DNA from: Gemmatimonadota bacterium
GTDB taxonomy: Bacteria > 4572-55 > J002
Assembly (NCBI GenBank): GCA_003697105.1
Contig: RFFQ01000027.1
Location: 1-5,106 of the forward strand
Direction: 5' to 3'
DNA: 5,106 bases
Shown: one piece after another, positions 1 through 4,994 of the stretch
How the letters are laid out: each line of letters starts with the position of its first letter
How positions within the stretch are numbered: the stretch's first letter is position 1
Notes under the pieces: model-generated
The model's input: the letters and a program-made list of their open reading frames with translations, nothing else
Told to the model about the DNA's origin: nothing
The model's database searches: none
Made by a program: the position numbers and the translations under genes

Positions 1-58
1 ACAAACTCATAAACTCACAAACTCATAAACTCACAAACTCATAAACTCACAAACTCAT
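1..58. repeat. 16-bp tandem repeat abutting the yejB start codon
   Basis: The unit ACAAACTCATAAACTC occurs three times exactly (1-16, 17-32, 33-48), followed by its first 10 bases (49-58). Each unit is two 8-mers, A[C/T]AAACTC, that differ at one base, so the array is also an alternating 8-bp repeat. It may extend left beyond the window. The last partial copy supplies the AT of the ATG at 57-59, and the array breaks exactly at the G of that codon, where a perfect repeat would read ATA. Because 16 is not a multiple of 3, the TAA in each unit (10-12, 26-28, 42-44) falls in a different frame, so three copies close all three forward frames before the gene. It resembles the short tandemly repeated repetitive sequences of cyanobacteria and of Beggiatoa-type genomes. 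No function can be assigned. Confidence 0.97.
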
Positions 59-1340
59 GGGAACATATTTTCTACGCCGTATTTTGCTGATGATTCCGAC
101 CTTTTTCGGGTCAACCATTTTGGTGTTTGTGATTTTACAACTGGCACCGGGGGGTCCCTTGGAGCAGACCATTCAACGCATCCAAGCAGGAGCGGCTCAA
201 CAAGGCGAAGCGGGTGGCGGGTCTTCCACCGAGTTAGTCGGGGGTGGCGTGATTACCAAATCCGCAATGGAAGAATTGAAGCGGTTTTATGGTTTCGATA
301 AGCCGGTTCATATCCGCTATTTGATGTGGCTGGGGGTTTGGCCCCGCGAGACCGAACATCGCAATGTCATCTTTCAACCGGAAGAAACGGAAGTCCGCAA
401 AAGCATTGGCGGCGGAAAATTTGTGTGGGTGAAAAAAGAGGGTGAATCGCAGTTCGGAGTGTACCATGAGGATGGTACCCCCCATACCGGGTGGTTTGCC
501 CGGCGTGAGACCGCAAACACAGACACCAACCCGACAGACGAAACCATCAAAGTGACCATTTTCCGCCGCGAATTTTCGGGAATTCTGACCGGTAATCTGG
601 GTAAATCCTACACGTACATGCAACCGGTAACCGACGTGATGAAACCGCGCTTTAAGGTTTCCATCTTTTTTGGATTAAGTGGTTTTTTCATTGCCTACTT
701 GGTTTGTATCCCATTGGGGATCGCCAAAGCATTGCGGCACGGTTCTACCTTCGATTTGATGTCCAGTATGATCGTATTTGTCGGGTATTCTGTCCCCGGG
801 TGGGCACTGGGCGCGGTCTTGCTGATGTTATTGGGAGGCGGGTCGTTCTGGGATATTTTCCCACTGGGGGGGTTTCGCTCCGAAGGGTGGGAATATATGT
901 CGCTGGCAGGTAAGATCATCGACCAGCTCCACCACGCGATACTGCCCCTAATTGCCTGGACTATCGGCGGCTTTGCAACCCTCACCGTACTCATGAAAAA
1001 CAGTATTTTAGAGAACATTTCACAAGATTACGTGCGTACCGCATTCGCTAAAGGACTTTCAGAAAAACGGGTTATCTGGCTCCATACCTTGCGAAATTCT
1101 GTGATCCCGCTGGCATCGTTCATCGGACATTCCATCGGGATTTTAATTGCCGGTTCGTATTTAATCGAGGTAGCATTTAATATCGATGGCTTCGGCAAAA
1201 TGAGTTTTCAGGCAATTTTAGACCGGGATTACCCGATTGTCATGGGCTTTTTAGTGATTGTGGTCTTGCTGCGCCTCGTGGGAAATATTCTCTCGGATAT
1301 AGCACTGGCAACGGTCGATCCCCGGATTCGATTTAAGTAA
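57..1340 (+). CDS. yejB: YejB-like inner-membrane permease subunit of a peptide ABC importer
   Basis: This is one of two membrane subunits forming the peptide translocation path. The N-terminus (residues 1-34, with RRILLMIPTFFG and LAPGGP) and the YGFDKPVHIRY block (78-88) match the YejB branch as I recall it. TM1 spans about 9-29. A long periplasmic loop follows, and the permease core starts near 200 with segments at about 201-222, 235-259, 292-313, 350-372 and 394-416. The EAA-type loop that docks the ATPase is at about 325-352 (YVRTAFAKGLSEK...LRNSVIP). The end, VDPRIRFK, matches the usual VDPRI.F close. At 427 aa it exceeds E. coli YejB (about 364), mostly through extra loop residues 95-171. 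The ATG at 57 is the first start after the in-frame TAA at 42-44 and gives the expected family N-terminus; no Shine-Dalgarno precedes it. The substrate is inferred to be peptides; the exact one is unknown. Confidence 0.94.
   Translation: MGTYFLRRILLMIPTFFGSTILVFVILQLAPGGPLEQTIQRIQAGAAQQGEAGGGSSTELVGGGVITKSAMEELKRFYGFDKPVHIRYLMWLGVWPRETEHRNVIFQPEETEVRKSIGGGKFVWVKKEGESQFGVYHEDGTPHTGWFARRETANTDTNPTDETIKVTIFRREFSGILTGNLGKSYTYMQPVTDVMKPRFKVSIFFGLSGFFIAYLVCIPLGIAKALRHGSTFDLMSSMIVFVGYSVPGWALGAVLLMLLGGGSFWDIFPLGGFRSEGWEYMSLAGKIIDQLHHAILPLIAWTIGGFATLTVLMKNSILENISQDYVRTAFAKGLSEKRVIWLHTLRNSVIPLASFIGHSIGILIAGSYLIEVAFNIDGFGKMSFQAILDRDYPIVMGFLVIVVLLRLVGNILSDIALATVDPRIRFK
339..569 (+). other. yejB: Extra periplasmic segment inside the YejB-like permease
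   Basis: Residues about 95-171 lie between RYLMWLG (87-93) and FSGILTGNLGKSY (173-185). In ordinary OppB/DppB/YejB proteins these two blocks are nearly adjacent. The segment is polar and charged, has no hydrophobic helix, and contains alternating stretches that look like beta strands (KFVWVKKEG, FGVYHEDG, TIKVTIFRR) with turns rich in G, D, N and T. It sits in the loop after TM1, which faces the periplasm. It might form a small domain touching the substrate-binding protein or the ligand, but that is inference. Boundaries are approximate because they were set by eye. Confidence 0.65.
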
Positions 1341-1379: not shown

Positions 1380-2480
1380 ATGAACCGTACACCCGCATCT
1401 TCACAAACACCATCCGCCGTGGATGAATCTATTTCGCTTTCGATTCTGCAAAAACGGTGGCAAAAATTCAAAACCCTCAAACGGGGATATTATGCGTTTA
1501 TTCTGTTGGTTATCCTCTACGTAACCTCATTCTTCCTACCGTTTTTGGTGAATAACCGGGCACTCGTGGTGAAATACAATGGGCATTTCTACTTTCCGGC
1601 ACTGAAACAGGTGTTCACCAAAGGGATTTATTTAGGGGAAACATTTGGCGTGGATACCCCCGGCGAACCCAATTACCGGCAACTTCAAGCGCAATGGCGT
1701 GAAGAAGGGCAGGGGAATTGGGTGATTATGCCCCCTTACCCCTACGGACCGTTGGAGGACATCAACATTGAGGGCAATAAAATGTATGAGAAGCCCTCAC
1801 GGCACCGCTGGATGGGCACAGACAACGTCGGACGAGATGTATTCGCTCGATTAGCATACGGATTTAACATTTCGATCTCGTTTGCCATTATTTTGCAGTT
1901 GGTCTCGTATGCTATCGGGGTGTCGTTGGGGGCGGCGATGGGCTACTTTGGAGGAAAATTTGACCTGCTTTTCCAACGCTTTATCGAAATCTGGGGGACG
2001 TTACCCCTCCTGTTTGTGGTGATCATCATCAGTTCGCTGGTGCAACCGAATTTCTTCCTGCTGATCCTCATTCTGGCAGCAACCCGTTGGATCGGCATGA
2101 CCTATTTCATGCGAGCCGAATTTTACCGGGAAAAAGCCAAAGATTATGTTGCCGCCGCAATCTCGATGGGTCAAAGCCATGCCAAGATCATCTTCCAGCA
2201 CATCCTGCCCAACTCGCTGGTGCCGATCATCACCTATTTTCCCTTCGGAGTGGTCACTGCCATTGGCTCTTTGGTTTCCTTGGACTTTTTAGGCTTCGGC
2301 TTACCACCGCCCACCCCCAGTTGGGGGCAGATGGTCTCGGTCGGATTGCAGAACATCACCAAGTGGTGGATGGTTCTTGCACCGCTGGGGGCACTGTTTG
2401 GTACGTTGTTGATGATTGTCTTTATCGGGGAAGCTGTGCGCGAAGCATTTGACCCCAAAGTTTACTCACGATTACGATAA
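1380..2480 (+). CDS. yejE: YejE-like inner-membrane permease subunit of a peptide ABC importer
   Basis: This is the second membrane subunit, expected to pair with the YejB-like protein. After a polar cytoplasmic tail (1-37) comes TM1 (about 38-57). The periplasmic loop carries VVKYNGHFYFPALK (63-76) and NWVIMPPYPYG (113-123), blocks typical of YejE and absent from plain OppC. The GTDNVGRDVFARLAYG motif (146-161) shared by OppC-type permeases follows, then core helices near 165-188, 208-234, 280-303 and 332-350. The EAA-type loop that contacts the ATPase is at about 256-282 (YVAAAISMG...HILPNSLVP). LDFLGFGLP (301-309) and the end FIGEAVREAFDPK are family hallmarks. The 366 aa length is slightly above E. 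coli YejE (about 341), mainly at the N-terminus. The ATG at 1380 is the only start that retains the whole tail. The next gene begins 1 nt after its stop. Confidence 0.94.
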   Translation: MNRTPASSQTPSAVDESISLSILQKRWQKFKTLKRGYYAFILLVILYVTSFFLPFLVNNRALVVKYNGHFYFPALKQVFTKGIYLGETFGVDTPGEPNYRQLQAQWREEGQGNWVIMPPYPYGPLEDINIEGNKMYEKPSRHRWMGTDNVGRDVFARLAYGFNISISFAIILQLVSYAIGVSLGAAMGYFGGKFDLLFQRFIEIWGTLPLLFVVIIISSLVQPNFFLLILILAATRWIGMTYFMRAEFYREKAKDYVAAAISMGQSHAKIIFQHILPNSLVPIITYFPFGVVTAIGSLVSLDFLGFGLPPPTPSWGQMVSVGLQNITKWWMVLAPLGALFGTLLMIVFIGEAVREAFDPKVYSRLR

Positions 2481-2481
2481 A

Positions 2482-3957
2482 ATGGCGATGAGCAAAGAAA
2501 AATTAGTCGAAGTTCGCAACTTAAAAACCTATTTTCAGATCGGAAATCAAACTGCCAAAGCGGTCGATGGTCTGGATTTTGACATTTACAAGGGTGAAGT
2601 TCTCGGTATTGTGGGGGAATCCGGTTCCGGAAAATCGGTCACCTCACTATCGCTGATCCAGCTCATCCCCAATCCCCCGGGAGAAGTCGCGGAAGGTAAA
2701 ATCCGGTTCAAGGGAGAAACGCTGTTTGATGGCAACGAATTAAAAGCGGTTAAAGCGGTTCCCCAATACCTCTATTTTAACGGGTTGACCGGAGCGCGAC
2801 GGCATATAATTGCCGCCCTGTTTTTGGTGCTCTGGTTTAGCATTCATTCGATGTTACCCCTTGCCGGGTTTATTCCCCACGCAACCTCCATCGCTTTGGC
2901 ATTAACCGTTATGATAACCCTTTTTTATGAGTCCCCCCGCGCAAAGGCAATGGAGGACTTCCGGGAGAAACTCTACCGCCGCATCCGGGAGATTCGCGGA
3001 CGCGAGATTGCTATGATCTTCCAAGAGCCGATGACGTCACTCAATCCGGTTTATACCGTCGGCTTGCAGATCATTGAAGCTCTGAAGCCAAAATCCGTTT
3101 TTGACTTTTTGCGTGACGCCGTTATTTCCGGGGCAAACAGCATCCGCACCTCAACGTTTGCCTCCAAATTACGGGTTGTTGCTCTTTTTGGTGGGGTGAT
3201 TCTCTTCTTCTCGCAATTGTTTCAAGGATGGACATTTCAGTCCAGCGCAATGGTTTCAGCATTTGCTACGGGGGCACTGATTCCAGGCGTCTTTTGGGGA
3301 AGCGTTCTCCTGTTAGACCGGTTGATTCCCAAAGCATACCACCAACAATATGAGACCCTATTTGCAGAAGGGGTGCAATTGCTGCGAGCAGTGGGTATAT
3401 CCGATCCGGAAAAGCGAATGCGAGACTATCCCCATCAATTTTCCGGCGGGATGCGCCAACGAGCAATGATTGCCATGGCATTGGCAAAACATCCATCGCT
3501 TTTGATTGCCGATGAACCCACCACGGCCTTGGATGTAACGATCCAAGCCCAAATTTTGGAGTTGATGCTTGAGATCAAAAACAAACAGAACGATTCAGCC
3601 GTCGTGCTGATTACCCACGATCTCGCCGTCGTAGCAGAGACTTGCGAGCGGGTGATGGTGATGTATGGTGGTAAAATTCAGGAAGTTGCCGCCGTGAATA
3701 CGTTGTTTGAAGCTCCCAAACACCCGTACACCAAAGGCTTGTTACACTCCATCCCCCGCCCCACGCAGGAAAAACGAGAGCGTCTGGAGACAATCCGCGG
3801 CATGGTACCAAGTATCCTTAATTTTCCGGCAGGCTGTAAGTTCTGCACCCGGTGTGATGAAAAATTGGAGAAATGTGAAACCATCGAACCGGACTTATTG
3901 GAAGTCGAACCCGGCCATTTTGTCCGGTGCCACCTCTTTTCAGAAGTGAAATCCTAA
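2482..3957 (+). CDS. oppD: OppD-type ATP-binding subunit with two inserted membrane hairpins
   Basis: This ATPase subunit of the importer is 491 aa, against about 330 for ordinary OppD. All ATPase motifs are present in order: Walker A GESGSGKS (45-52), Q-loop [11 protein letters not shown] (179-189), signature FSGGMRQR (320-327), Walker B LLIADEP (340-346), D-loop ALD (349-351) and H-switch ITHD (377-380). The C-terminal OppD/F domain has cysteines at 452, 458, 465 and 483, plus an extra Cys455. Two insertions of about 80 residues, each with two hydrophobic helices, flank the Q-loop. The start is set at 2482, one base after the yejE stop; 2488 (MSKEKLVEV) is equally possible. An in-frame ATG at 2416 would bury 22 unrelated residues inside yejE and is unlikely. 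The gene symbol is a family label; in YejABEF systems this is the first half of YejF. ATPase activity is predicted; the role of the inserts is unknown. Confidence 0.93.
2743..2760 (+). repeat. Perfect 9-bp tandem duplication at the left edge of insertion 1
   Basis: AAAGCGGTT occurs twice back to back (2743-2751, 2752-2760) and encodes Lys-Ala-Val twice (residues 88-93). It sits where the OppD-type sequence stops matching the ordinary family. It may be a trace of local slippage or simply chance; no matching copy was found at the right edge of the insertion. Confidence 0.85.
2743..2976 (+). other. oppD: Insertion 1 in the OppD-type ATPase: predicted two-helix membrane hairpin
   Basis: Residues about 88-165 separate the normal strand region ([10 protein letters not shown], 73-82) from the normal [13 protein letters not shown] (169-181). 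In standard OppD proteins these are about a dozen residues apart. Two hydrophobic helices are visible at about 109-127 and 134-149, joined by a short uncharged turn around AGFIPH. Basic residues precede the first helix (ARR, 105-107). The second helix is followed by a charged, probably helical stretch ([15 protein letters not shown], 153-167). This fits the positive-inside rule for a hairpin with both ends in the cytoplasm, so the ATPase domain can still fold there. Boundaries are estimates. Confidence 0.75.
3091..3342 (+). other. oppD: Insertion 2 in the OppD-type ATPase: predicted two-helix membrane hairpin
   Basis: Residues about 204-287 lie between [11 protein letters not shown] (193-203) and the region before the signature ([12 protein letters not shown], 295-306). 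In E. coli OppD the corresponding Q-to-signature linker is about 80 residues shorter. A polar stretch (204-228) leads to hydrophobic helices at about 230-248 and 256-278, joined by a short uncharged turn (GWTFQSS, 249-255). Flanking basic residues (K229, R231; R280, K284) suggest both ends are cytoplasmic. The site is in the helical subdomain, the part of an ABC ATPase nearest the permeases, so a hairpin emerging there could reach the membrane. Boundaries are estimates. Confidence 0.75.
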
Positions 3958-3959
3958 TG
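3955..3959 (+). promoter_or_regulatory. TAATG stop/start overlap coupling the two ATPase genes
   Basis: The TAA that ends the OppD-type gene (3955-3957) shares its last A with the ATG at 3957 that starts the OppF-type gene. This arrangement commonly couples translation of neighbouring subunits needed in equal amounts. Only a weak purine stretch (CAGAAGTGAAA, 3941-3951) lies upstream, so re-initiation by the terminating ribosome is the likelier mode. Confidence 0.75.
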
Positions 3960-4994
3960 TCATCAAATTCCATCCTCGCCGAAGTTAAAGACCTGAAAGT
4001 CCATTTTCCGGTGTATGGCGGGTTATTTTCTAAAAAAGTAGCAACGGTCAAAGCCGTGGACGGCGTGTCGTTCACCATTGGAAAACAGCAGACAATAGGG
4101 CTAGTGGGCGAATCTGGATGTGGGAAAACCACGGTTGGACGGGCAATGATCAACATTCTGCGCCATATTGCACCGGAAGTGGAGATCAGCGGGCATATCC
4201 GGTATCATTTTGATGGAAAGGTGGTCGATTTTGCCCAGATGTCTTCGGCGGAATCGCGCCCGTATCGCGCCAATGTGCAGATGATTTTCCAAGACCCGTA
4301 TGCCTCACTCAATCCGCGCATGACTGTGGCACAAATTGTCAGCGAGCCGCTTCGGATTCACAAACCGGAGATGAGCAAAAGCGAAATTCAAGATCGGGTG
4401 GGGTGGTTGTTGGAGAAAGTGGGACTGCGCGCCGAACAAGCACATCGCTACCCGCACGAATTTTCCGGCGGACAGCGCCAACGGGTTGGAATTGCCCGGG
4501 CGCTTGCCACCAACCCGGATTTGATCATCTGTGATGAACCGGTATCGGCGCTAGATGTCTCGATTCAGGCGCAGGTGATCAACTTGCTGATGGATTTACA
4601 GGATGAATTTCACATGTCGTATCTGTTTATCGCCCACGATCTATCCGTTGTCGAGCATATTTCCGATTACATTGCGGTGATGTATCTGGGTAATCTGGTG
4701 GAATTTGGCGAGAGCAAAGATGTTTTTTTCAACCCCCGCCATCCGTACAGTCAGGCGTTGCTTTCGGCGGTACCCTTGCCCGATCCCAAGCTGACACGGG
4801 CACAGCGCATCATTTTGGAGGGCGATGTGCCTACACCACTCAATAAACCTTCTGGATGTGGCTTCCGAACCCGGTGCCGGTTGGCAACCCCCGCCTGTGC
4901 GAAGGCGCTGCCACCGCTCGAAGAACATGCTCCCAACCATCAGGTCGCCTGTCCCATTGTCAAGGGCATGGAACCGGTTCACCCGGTGGGCTAA
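3957..4994 (+). CDS. oppF: OppF-type ATP-binding subunit of a peptide ABC importer
   Basis: This second ATPase is expected to form a heterodimer with the OppD-type protein under the permeases. It is 345 aa, normal for OppF/DppF. Motifs: Walker A GESGCGKT (51-58), Q-loop IFQDPYASLNP (110-120), signature FSGGQRQR (169-176), Walker B LIICDEP (189-195), D-loop ALD (198-200) and H-switch IAHD (225-228). The C-terminal peptide-importer domain has RHPYSQALLSAVP (261-273) and cysteines 301, 307, 314 and 332, the same spacing as in its partner. It has no membrane insertions. The start is chosen at 3957 because [18 protein letters not shown] is a normal N-terminus; an in-frame ATG at 3927 would add 10 residues overlapping the upstream gene. 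The gene symbol is a family label; the protein corresponds to the second half of YejF. Confidence 0.95.
   Translation: MSSNSILAEVKDLKVHFPVYGGLFSKKVATVKAVDGVSFTIGKQQTIGLVGESGCGKTTVGRAMINILRHIAPEVEISGHIRYHFDGKVVDFAQMSSAESRPYRANVQMIFQDPYASLNPRMTVAQIVSEPLRIHKPEMSKSEIQDRVGWLLEKVGLRAEQAHRYPHEFSGGQRQRVGIARALATNPDLIICDEPVSALDVSIQAQVINLLMDLQDEFHMSYLFIAHDLSVVEHISDYIAVMYLGNLVEFGESKDVFFNPRHPYSQALLSAVPLPDPKLTRAQRIILEGDVPTPLNKPSGCGFRTRCRLATPACAKALPPLEEHAPNHQVACPIVKGMEPVHPVG

Follow-up and report, generated by a model that had tools for sequence, protein, structure and literature searches.

An OppD/DppD-type peptide-importer ATPase with two predicted membrane-hairpin inserts

Contig RFFQ01000027.1 of a Gemmatimonadota bacterium (GenBank assembly GCA_003697105.1) encodes a peptide importer in which one of the two ATPases, an OppD/DppD-type protein of 491 residues (OppD below), carries two inserts, each predicted to form a hairpin of two membrane helices. 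The window, i.e. the whole stretch of DNA that was analysed, is the entire 5106-base contig, which comes from a metagenome-type assembly. ATP-binding cassette (ABC) importers have, by definition, separable cytoplasmic ATPases whose docking on the permease relies on coupling helices alone. An OppD with predicted membrane-hairpin inserts can reasonably be regarded as a real form of a known transporter type, conserved and specific to its lineage, of which no description was found. We consider it probable that this OppD is a membrane-anchored subunit, held by two hairpins that lie beside its docking surface and have an accessory role.

Two hydrophobic inserts in the OppD chain

The OppD gene, its two inserts and the predicted helices within them are as follows.

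2482–3957, plus strand: OppD/DppD-type ATPase with two predicted membrane-hairpin inserts, 491 residues
2728–2976, plus strand: insert 1, residues 83–165, after the final beta-subdomain strand and before the Q-loop strand (from alignments with ordinary OppD)
2791–2850, plus strand: predicted membrane helix 1, residues 104–123 (AlphaFold2 model, hydropathy, conservation moment)
2869–2928, plus strand: predicted membrane helix 2, residues 130–149 (AlphaFold2 model, hydropathy)
3088–3360, plus strand: insert 2, residues 203–293, within the helical subdomain, right after the helix that contacts the coupling helix (from alignments)
3157–3222, plus strand: predicted membrane helix 3, residues 226–247, ending in a conserved FSQL..GW (AlphaFold2 model, hydropathy, conservation)
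3241–3324, plus strand: predicted membrane helix 4, residues 254–281 (AlphaFold2 model, hydropathy)

The protein may start at the second ATG (position 2488), which matches the common start of its homologues. The insert boundaries (residues ~83–165 and ~203–293) are approximate and are defined relative to ordinary OppD proteins of 326–337 residues. They agree with the two helix-pair segments on either side of the Q-loop that a sequence-only reading of this DNA had placed at residues 88–165 and 204–287. Among aligned insert-bearing proteins, insert 1 is 83 residues long in 31 of 32 and 84 residues long in the remaining one, and insert 2 has 92 residues in all 32.

Hydrophobic segments were counted as 19-residue stretches with a mean Kyte–Doolittle value of at least 1.6. 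Each of the 32 insert-bearing OppD proteins has two to four such segments, and none has any once the inserts are excised. That ordinary relatives lack membrane segments, as the sequence-only reading had held, is true of all but one of 56 ordinary OppD proteins. The protein described here therefore does not fit the profile of a soluble peripheral subunit, a trait that is usual but not strictly defining for OppD/DppD. The hydropathy of the insert helices is similar to that of the transmembrane (TM) helices of OppB and OppC, the permeases of the same operon. The loops between the paired helices contain on average 0.0 and 0.09 lysine and arginine residues, and the four flanks contain 3.3–6.1 (32 members). 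Charge-poor loops bordered by lysine- and arginine-rich flanks correspond to a positive-inside pattern, which places both ends of each hairpin on the cytoplasmic side.

An AlphaFold2 model computed with 60 sequences (mean predicted local distance difference test score, pLDDT, of 92.6; predicted template modelling score of 0.85) shows an ordinary DppD fold with the inserts as long helical hairpins, which are carried by helices of 18–20 residues (152–171, 206–223 and 284–303). An earlier model from five sequences was poor (pLDDT 68) and was not used as evidence. The inserts contain no known domain: a Pfam search up to an E-value of 10 returned only chance-level membrane matches (E-values of 0.088 and 0.025). 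A profile of the inserts matched solved structures through its Q-loop stretch only, and no structure matches the inserts themselves. No description of an OppD with this layout was found in the open-access literature, and the sequence-only reading likewise named no described family that has it.

An ordinary OppD core with an ordinary docking surface

Apart from the inserts, the protein has the attributes of its family. It matches Pfam ABC_tran and oligo_HPY (PF08352, E-value 1.3e-20), in split pieces. The continuous 491-codon frame noted from the sequence alone retains every ABC motif, and in an alignment of 60 sequences all catalytic motifs, including the H-loop histidine H379, are invariant or nearly so.

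2614–2637, plus strand: Walker A GESGSGKS, residues 45–52, conserved
3022–3024, plus strand: Q-loop glutamine Q181, invariant
3076–3078, plus strand: E199, counterpart of DppD E114 by alignment, invariant
3439–3462, plus strand: ABC signature FSGGMRQR, residues 320–327 (FSGGM 320–324), conserved
3499–3516, plus strand: Walker B LLIADE, residues 340–345, conserved
3835–3930, plus strand: C452, C458, C465 and C483, matching the DppD [4Fe-4S] ligands by alignment, invariant or nearly so

The core superimposes on the OppD/DppD chains (chains C) of structures 8z1v–8z21 with VIA-align Z-scores of 36.5–38.1 over 316–322 residues, which leaves about 170 residues unmatched. By its motifs, iron–sulfur (Fe-S) cluster cysteines, fold and operon, the 491-residue protein is an OppD/DppD-type ATPase of a cluster-C peptide importer.

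In E. coli DppBCDF, K243 of the DppB coupling helix forms a salt bridge with DppD E114, and the DppD cysteines are named as [4Fe-4S] ligands (PMC12136057). In OppB, the AKG-motif lysine aligns with DppB K243 (chain A of 8z1v) and is conserved. Insert 2 starts four residues past E199. Because E199, the AKG lysine and the cysteines are all kept, OppD seems to dock on its permease in the ordinary way, with the hairpins adjoining the contact.

Distribution and single origin of the inserts

A protein search, the check that the sequence-only reading had proposed for homologues of the same layout, found full-length proteins with both inserts that are 57–61% identical to OppD. Genomes were then searched with a profile spanning insert 1 through insert 2. 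Full-length matches to it occurred in 43 of 245 genomes of Candidatus Neomarinimicrobiota (now Fidelibacterota; the former name is taken from NCBI record titles), and a contig end truncates one further copy (G277). The same layout is present in both genomes searched from the source organism's own phylum, which brings the number of genomes to 45. One of the copies sits on a 2.79-Mb contig. A domain-wide sample of 384 other genomes contained no instance of the layout, nor did 294 genomes from the class to which L040, an Ignavibacteriae relative, belongs, or four genomes from one further phylum. The matches in the 245 Neomarinimicrobiota genomes include no intermediate with a single insert. Among the best protein matches from the genome collection, 78 were usable, and 75 of these are 319–333 residues long and lack inserts.

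Open frames of ~600–660 residues that resemble OppD and match profile positions 65–120 were considered as a possible second type of insert, but the example inspected (L125) is an ordinary fused OppD–OppF without inserts. Such fused double ATPases are common in the same phylum (e.g. L125, 82–2013, minus strand).

Trees restricted to core columns unite the insert-bearing OppD proteins in a single clade (support 0.996; 100/100 for OppD plus OppF), which adjoins insert-less OppD proteins of Ignavibacteriae and Kapaibacterium. The inserts have a single origin. The operon also occurs in insert-less form within the same phylum (L171, L172, L174 and L181), and two operons combine permeases of the type that accompanies insert-bearing ATPases with an insert-less ATPase pair:

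L175, 3634–7894: insert-partner-type permeases with insert-less OppD and OppF
L176, 3433–7687: insert-partner-type permeases with insert-less OppD and OppF

The permeases of these two operons nest inside the insert-partner permease clade (98/96 and 96/97), and their OppD and OppF proteins group with the insert-less lineage (100/100). The approximately unbiased test does not reject the alternative of a separate clade for the insert-partner permeases (p = 0.118), although the free tree nests L175 and L176 among them with good support. As the permease and ATPase trees disagree, the OppD/OppF pair was probably exchanged as a module in L175 and L176.

Selection on the inserts

Between close pairs of sequences, the ratio of nonsynonymous to synonymous substitution rates (dN/dS) of the inserts is mostly 0.02–0.28, above that of the core (mostly up to 0.05) and well below 1. 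The inserts are under purifying selection. Conservation in helix 1 is one-sided (R107, A111, F114 and W118; conservation moment, p < 0.001), and near-invariant residues mark the hairpin ends (L125 and G129; Q245, G249, W250 and F252). Helices 2–4 have no significant hydropathy moment. The conserved face of helix 1 and the residues at the hairpin ends suggest that the inserts make specific contacts and are more than a greasy anchor.

Other genes of the contig and the operon

The remaining genes of the contig complete the importer.

57–1340, plus strand: OppB/YejB-type permease, 427 residues (Pfam PF00528, hydropathy, alignment to DppB 8z1v_A)
1380–2480, plus strand: OppC/YejE-type permease, 366 residues (Pfam PF00528; best NCBIfam model YejE, under its cut-off)
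3957–4994, plus strand: OppF/DppF-type partner ATPase, 345 residues (Pfam; NCBIfam OppF; hydropathy)

OppB and OppC are full length and have their usual helices. OppB has six hydrophobic segments by hydropathy, a lengthy periplasmic stretch separates TM1 from TM2, and its best NCBIfam model is YejB, with a score under the cut-off. The stretch between the first and second membrane helices (~130 residues, at residues ~40–170) far exceeds that of E. coli DppB/OppB, and the total length of OppB varies among lineages from 342 to 512 residues. OppF has neither inserts nor hydrophobic segments, so that the inserts are confined to one of the two ATPases. These are encoded by two separate genes and not by the fused double-ATPase gene of a YejABEF importer.

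Another 11 genomes have the genes in the order SBP_bac_5 lipoprotein (~640–670 residues), OppB, OppC, insert-bearing OppD and OppF. The contig studied does not reach back to the SBP_bac_5 gene that lies upstream in relatives; in the genome nearest to the source, two tandem SBP_bac_5 proteins lie upstream of the insert-bearing operon (L153, 244–2226 and 2334–4352). Beyond these five transporter genes, no further conserved operon gene was found except an M3-family peptidase in two genomes, where its gene overlaps or directly follows OppF (L160, 7912–9603; L164, 6631–8322). This linkage suggests that oligopeptides are imported and cleaved by the products of one operon, and peptide import as the function of the transporter fits it.

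Role of the hairpins

In the arrangement we favour, two membrane-helix hairpins would be inserted in the ATPase domain, one before and one after the Q-loop, next to the docking surface for the OppB coupling helix. Both hairpins would enter and leave the membrane on the cytoplasmic side, so that the ATPase fold stays in the cytoplasm, docks as usual and has its hairpins in the bilayer adjoining the permease. Most likely, the hairpins would keep OppD, and OppF through the D–F heterodimer, permanently membrane-bound, and they may also tune the motion of the ATPase on the permease. The sequence-only reading had likewise proposed an ATPase that is cytoplasmic yet anchored. The charge pattern, with all four flanks cytoplasmic, and the modelled hairpins agree with it; membrane insertion itself, the anchoring role and an effect on the transport cycle are what we infer from them. 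Three observations weigh against this reading. The hydropathy of single helices is only moderate in some members. The evolutionary rate of the inserts is several times that of the core. Finally, the L175 and L176 permeases, which lack insert-bearing partners, hardly depart from the positions that insert-partner permeases keep invariant (5 of 171 and 3 of 149 changed), and a specific contact with OppB or OppC is not evident: the eight changes are conservative and form no pattern that would mark an insert contact.

The moderate hydropathy of some helices, together with approximate insertion energies above zero and an AlphaFold2 monomer predicted without a membrane, would suit a soluble helical lobe that sits on the ATPase outside the membrane and owes its hydrophobicity to packing of the helices against one another or against OppF. 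We regard such a lobe as unlikely, given helices of 20–28 residues, charge-free loops with lysine- and arginine-rich flanks, a hydropathy like that of the TM helices of OppB and OppC, and helices 2–4 without the significant moment expected of amphipathic surface helices rather than membrane ones. It is similarly unlikely that the hairpins are chiefly a docking or sensing platform through which a further membrane protein or a lipid regulates import, and not a mechanical anchor. The conserved face of helix 1 and the loop motifs do suggest specific contacts, and hairpins on only one of the two ATPases would suit such a platform, but the same residues could equally serve contacts between the hairpins or with OppB, and apart from the M3 peptidase in two genomes no extra conserved gene accompanies the operon.

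The fixed length of the inserts, their presence in every member of the clade and insertion points that border the coupling interface could also mean that the permease cannot do without the four helices, which would complete or line the substrate path. This is very improbable: OppB and OppC have their full set of helices, and permeases of the same type operate beside insert-less OppD and OppF in L175 and L176 with nearly all invariant positions kept. Since those permeases are nearly unchanged, the hairpins are unlikely to be an obligatory pore part, and the earlier suggestion that they add helices around the permease core has lost ground. They are probably an accessory anchor or modulator, not essential to the pore. 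That the gene is decaying, or is a product of faulty assembly or binning, as a 5106-base contig from a metagenome-type assembly might suggest, can be dismissed almost entirely; independent genomes, 45 in all and including the 2.79-Mb contig, have the same layout with constant lengths, no stop codons and signs of purifying selection.

A bolder elaboration of the anchored subunit, which we hold as a rather doubtful possibility, is that the hairpins form a lever that couples one ATPase to the membrane: each ATP cycle would shift the hairpins within the bilayer or, in the other direction, bilayer state would bias the ATPase. One hairpin would be on the RecA-like/beta part and its counterpart on the helical subdomain; during the DppABCDF cycle there is a relative rotation of ~20 degrees between these parts (PMC12136057). 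If this holds, the importer would be asymmetric and its motor itself an integral membrane protein.

Comparison with known importers

If the hairpins insert as predicted, the ATPase fold can accommodate integral-membrane inserts even where its surface is most constrained. The protein would then be a natural system for asking whether docking, dissociation or subdomain rotation of the ATPase limits transport, and the lineage supplies the controls, namely insert-less sister proteins and two operons that pair the same type of permease with insert-less ATPases.

The closest core relatives are the insert-less OppD proteins of Ignavibacteriae/Kapaibacterium (L040 and L041) and of the same phylum (L171, L174 and L181). 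They have the same gene order and are 63–70% identical over the core pieces, but are only 326–337 residues long and lack inserts. Among peptide permeases, OppB and OppC score best (under the cut-off) with YejB and YejE of the YejABEF importers of microcin C and peptides. Unlike these, in which YejF is one fused double ATPase, the system described here has two separate ATPases, one of them with inserts. With E. coli DppD (DppABCDF; 8z1v, 8z1y; PMC12136057), OppD shares the ABC core, the glutamate at the docking surface (E114/E199), the Fe-S cysteines, the oligo_HPY C-terminal region and a separate F partner. However, DppD has 327 residues and no inserts; those of OppD fall at DppD positions ~76–83 and ~119–129. 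The best structural match of the core is E. coli OppD (OppBCDF, 8z21; Z-score of 38.1 over 322 residues), which, unlike the insert-bearing protein, has no inserts and is a soluble peripheral subunit.
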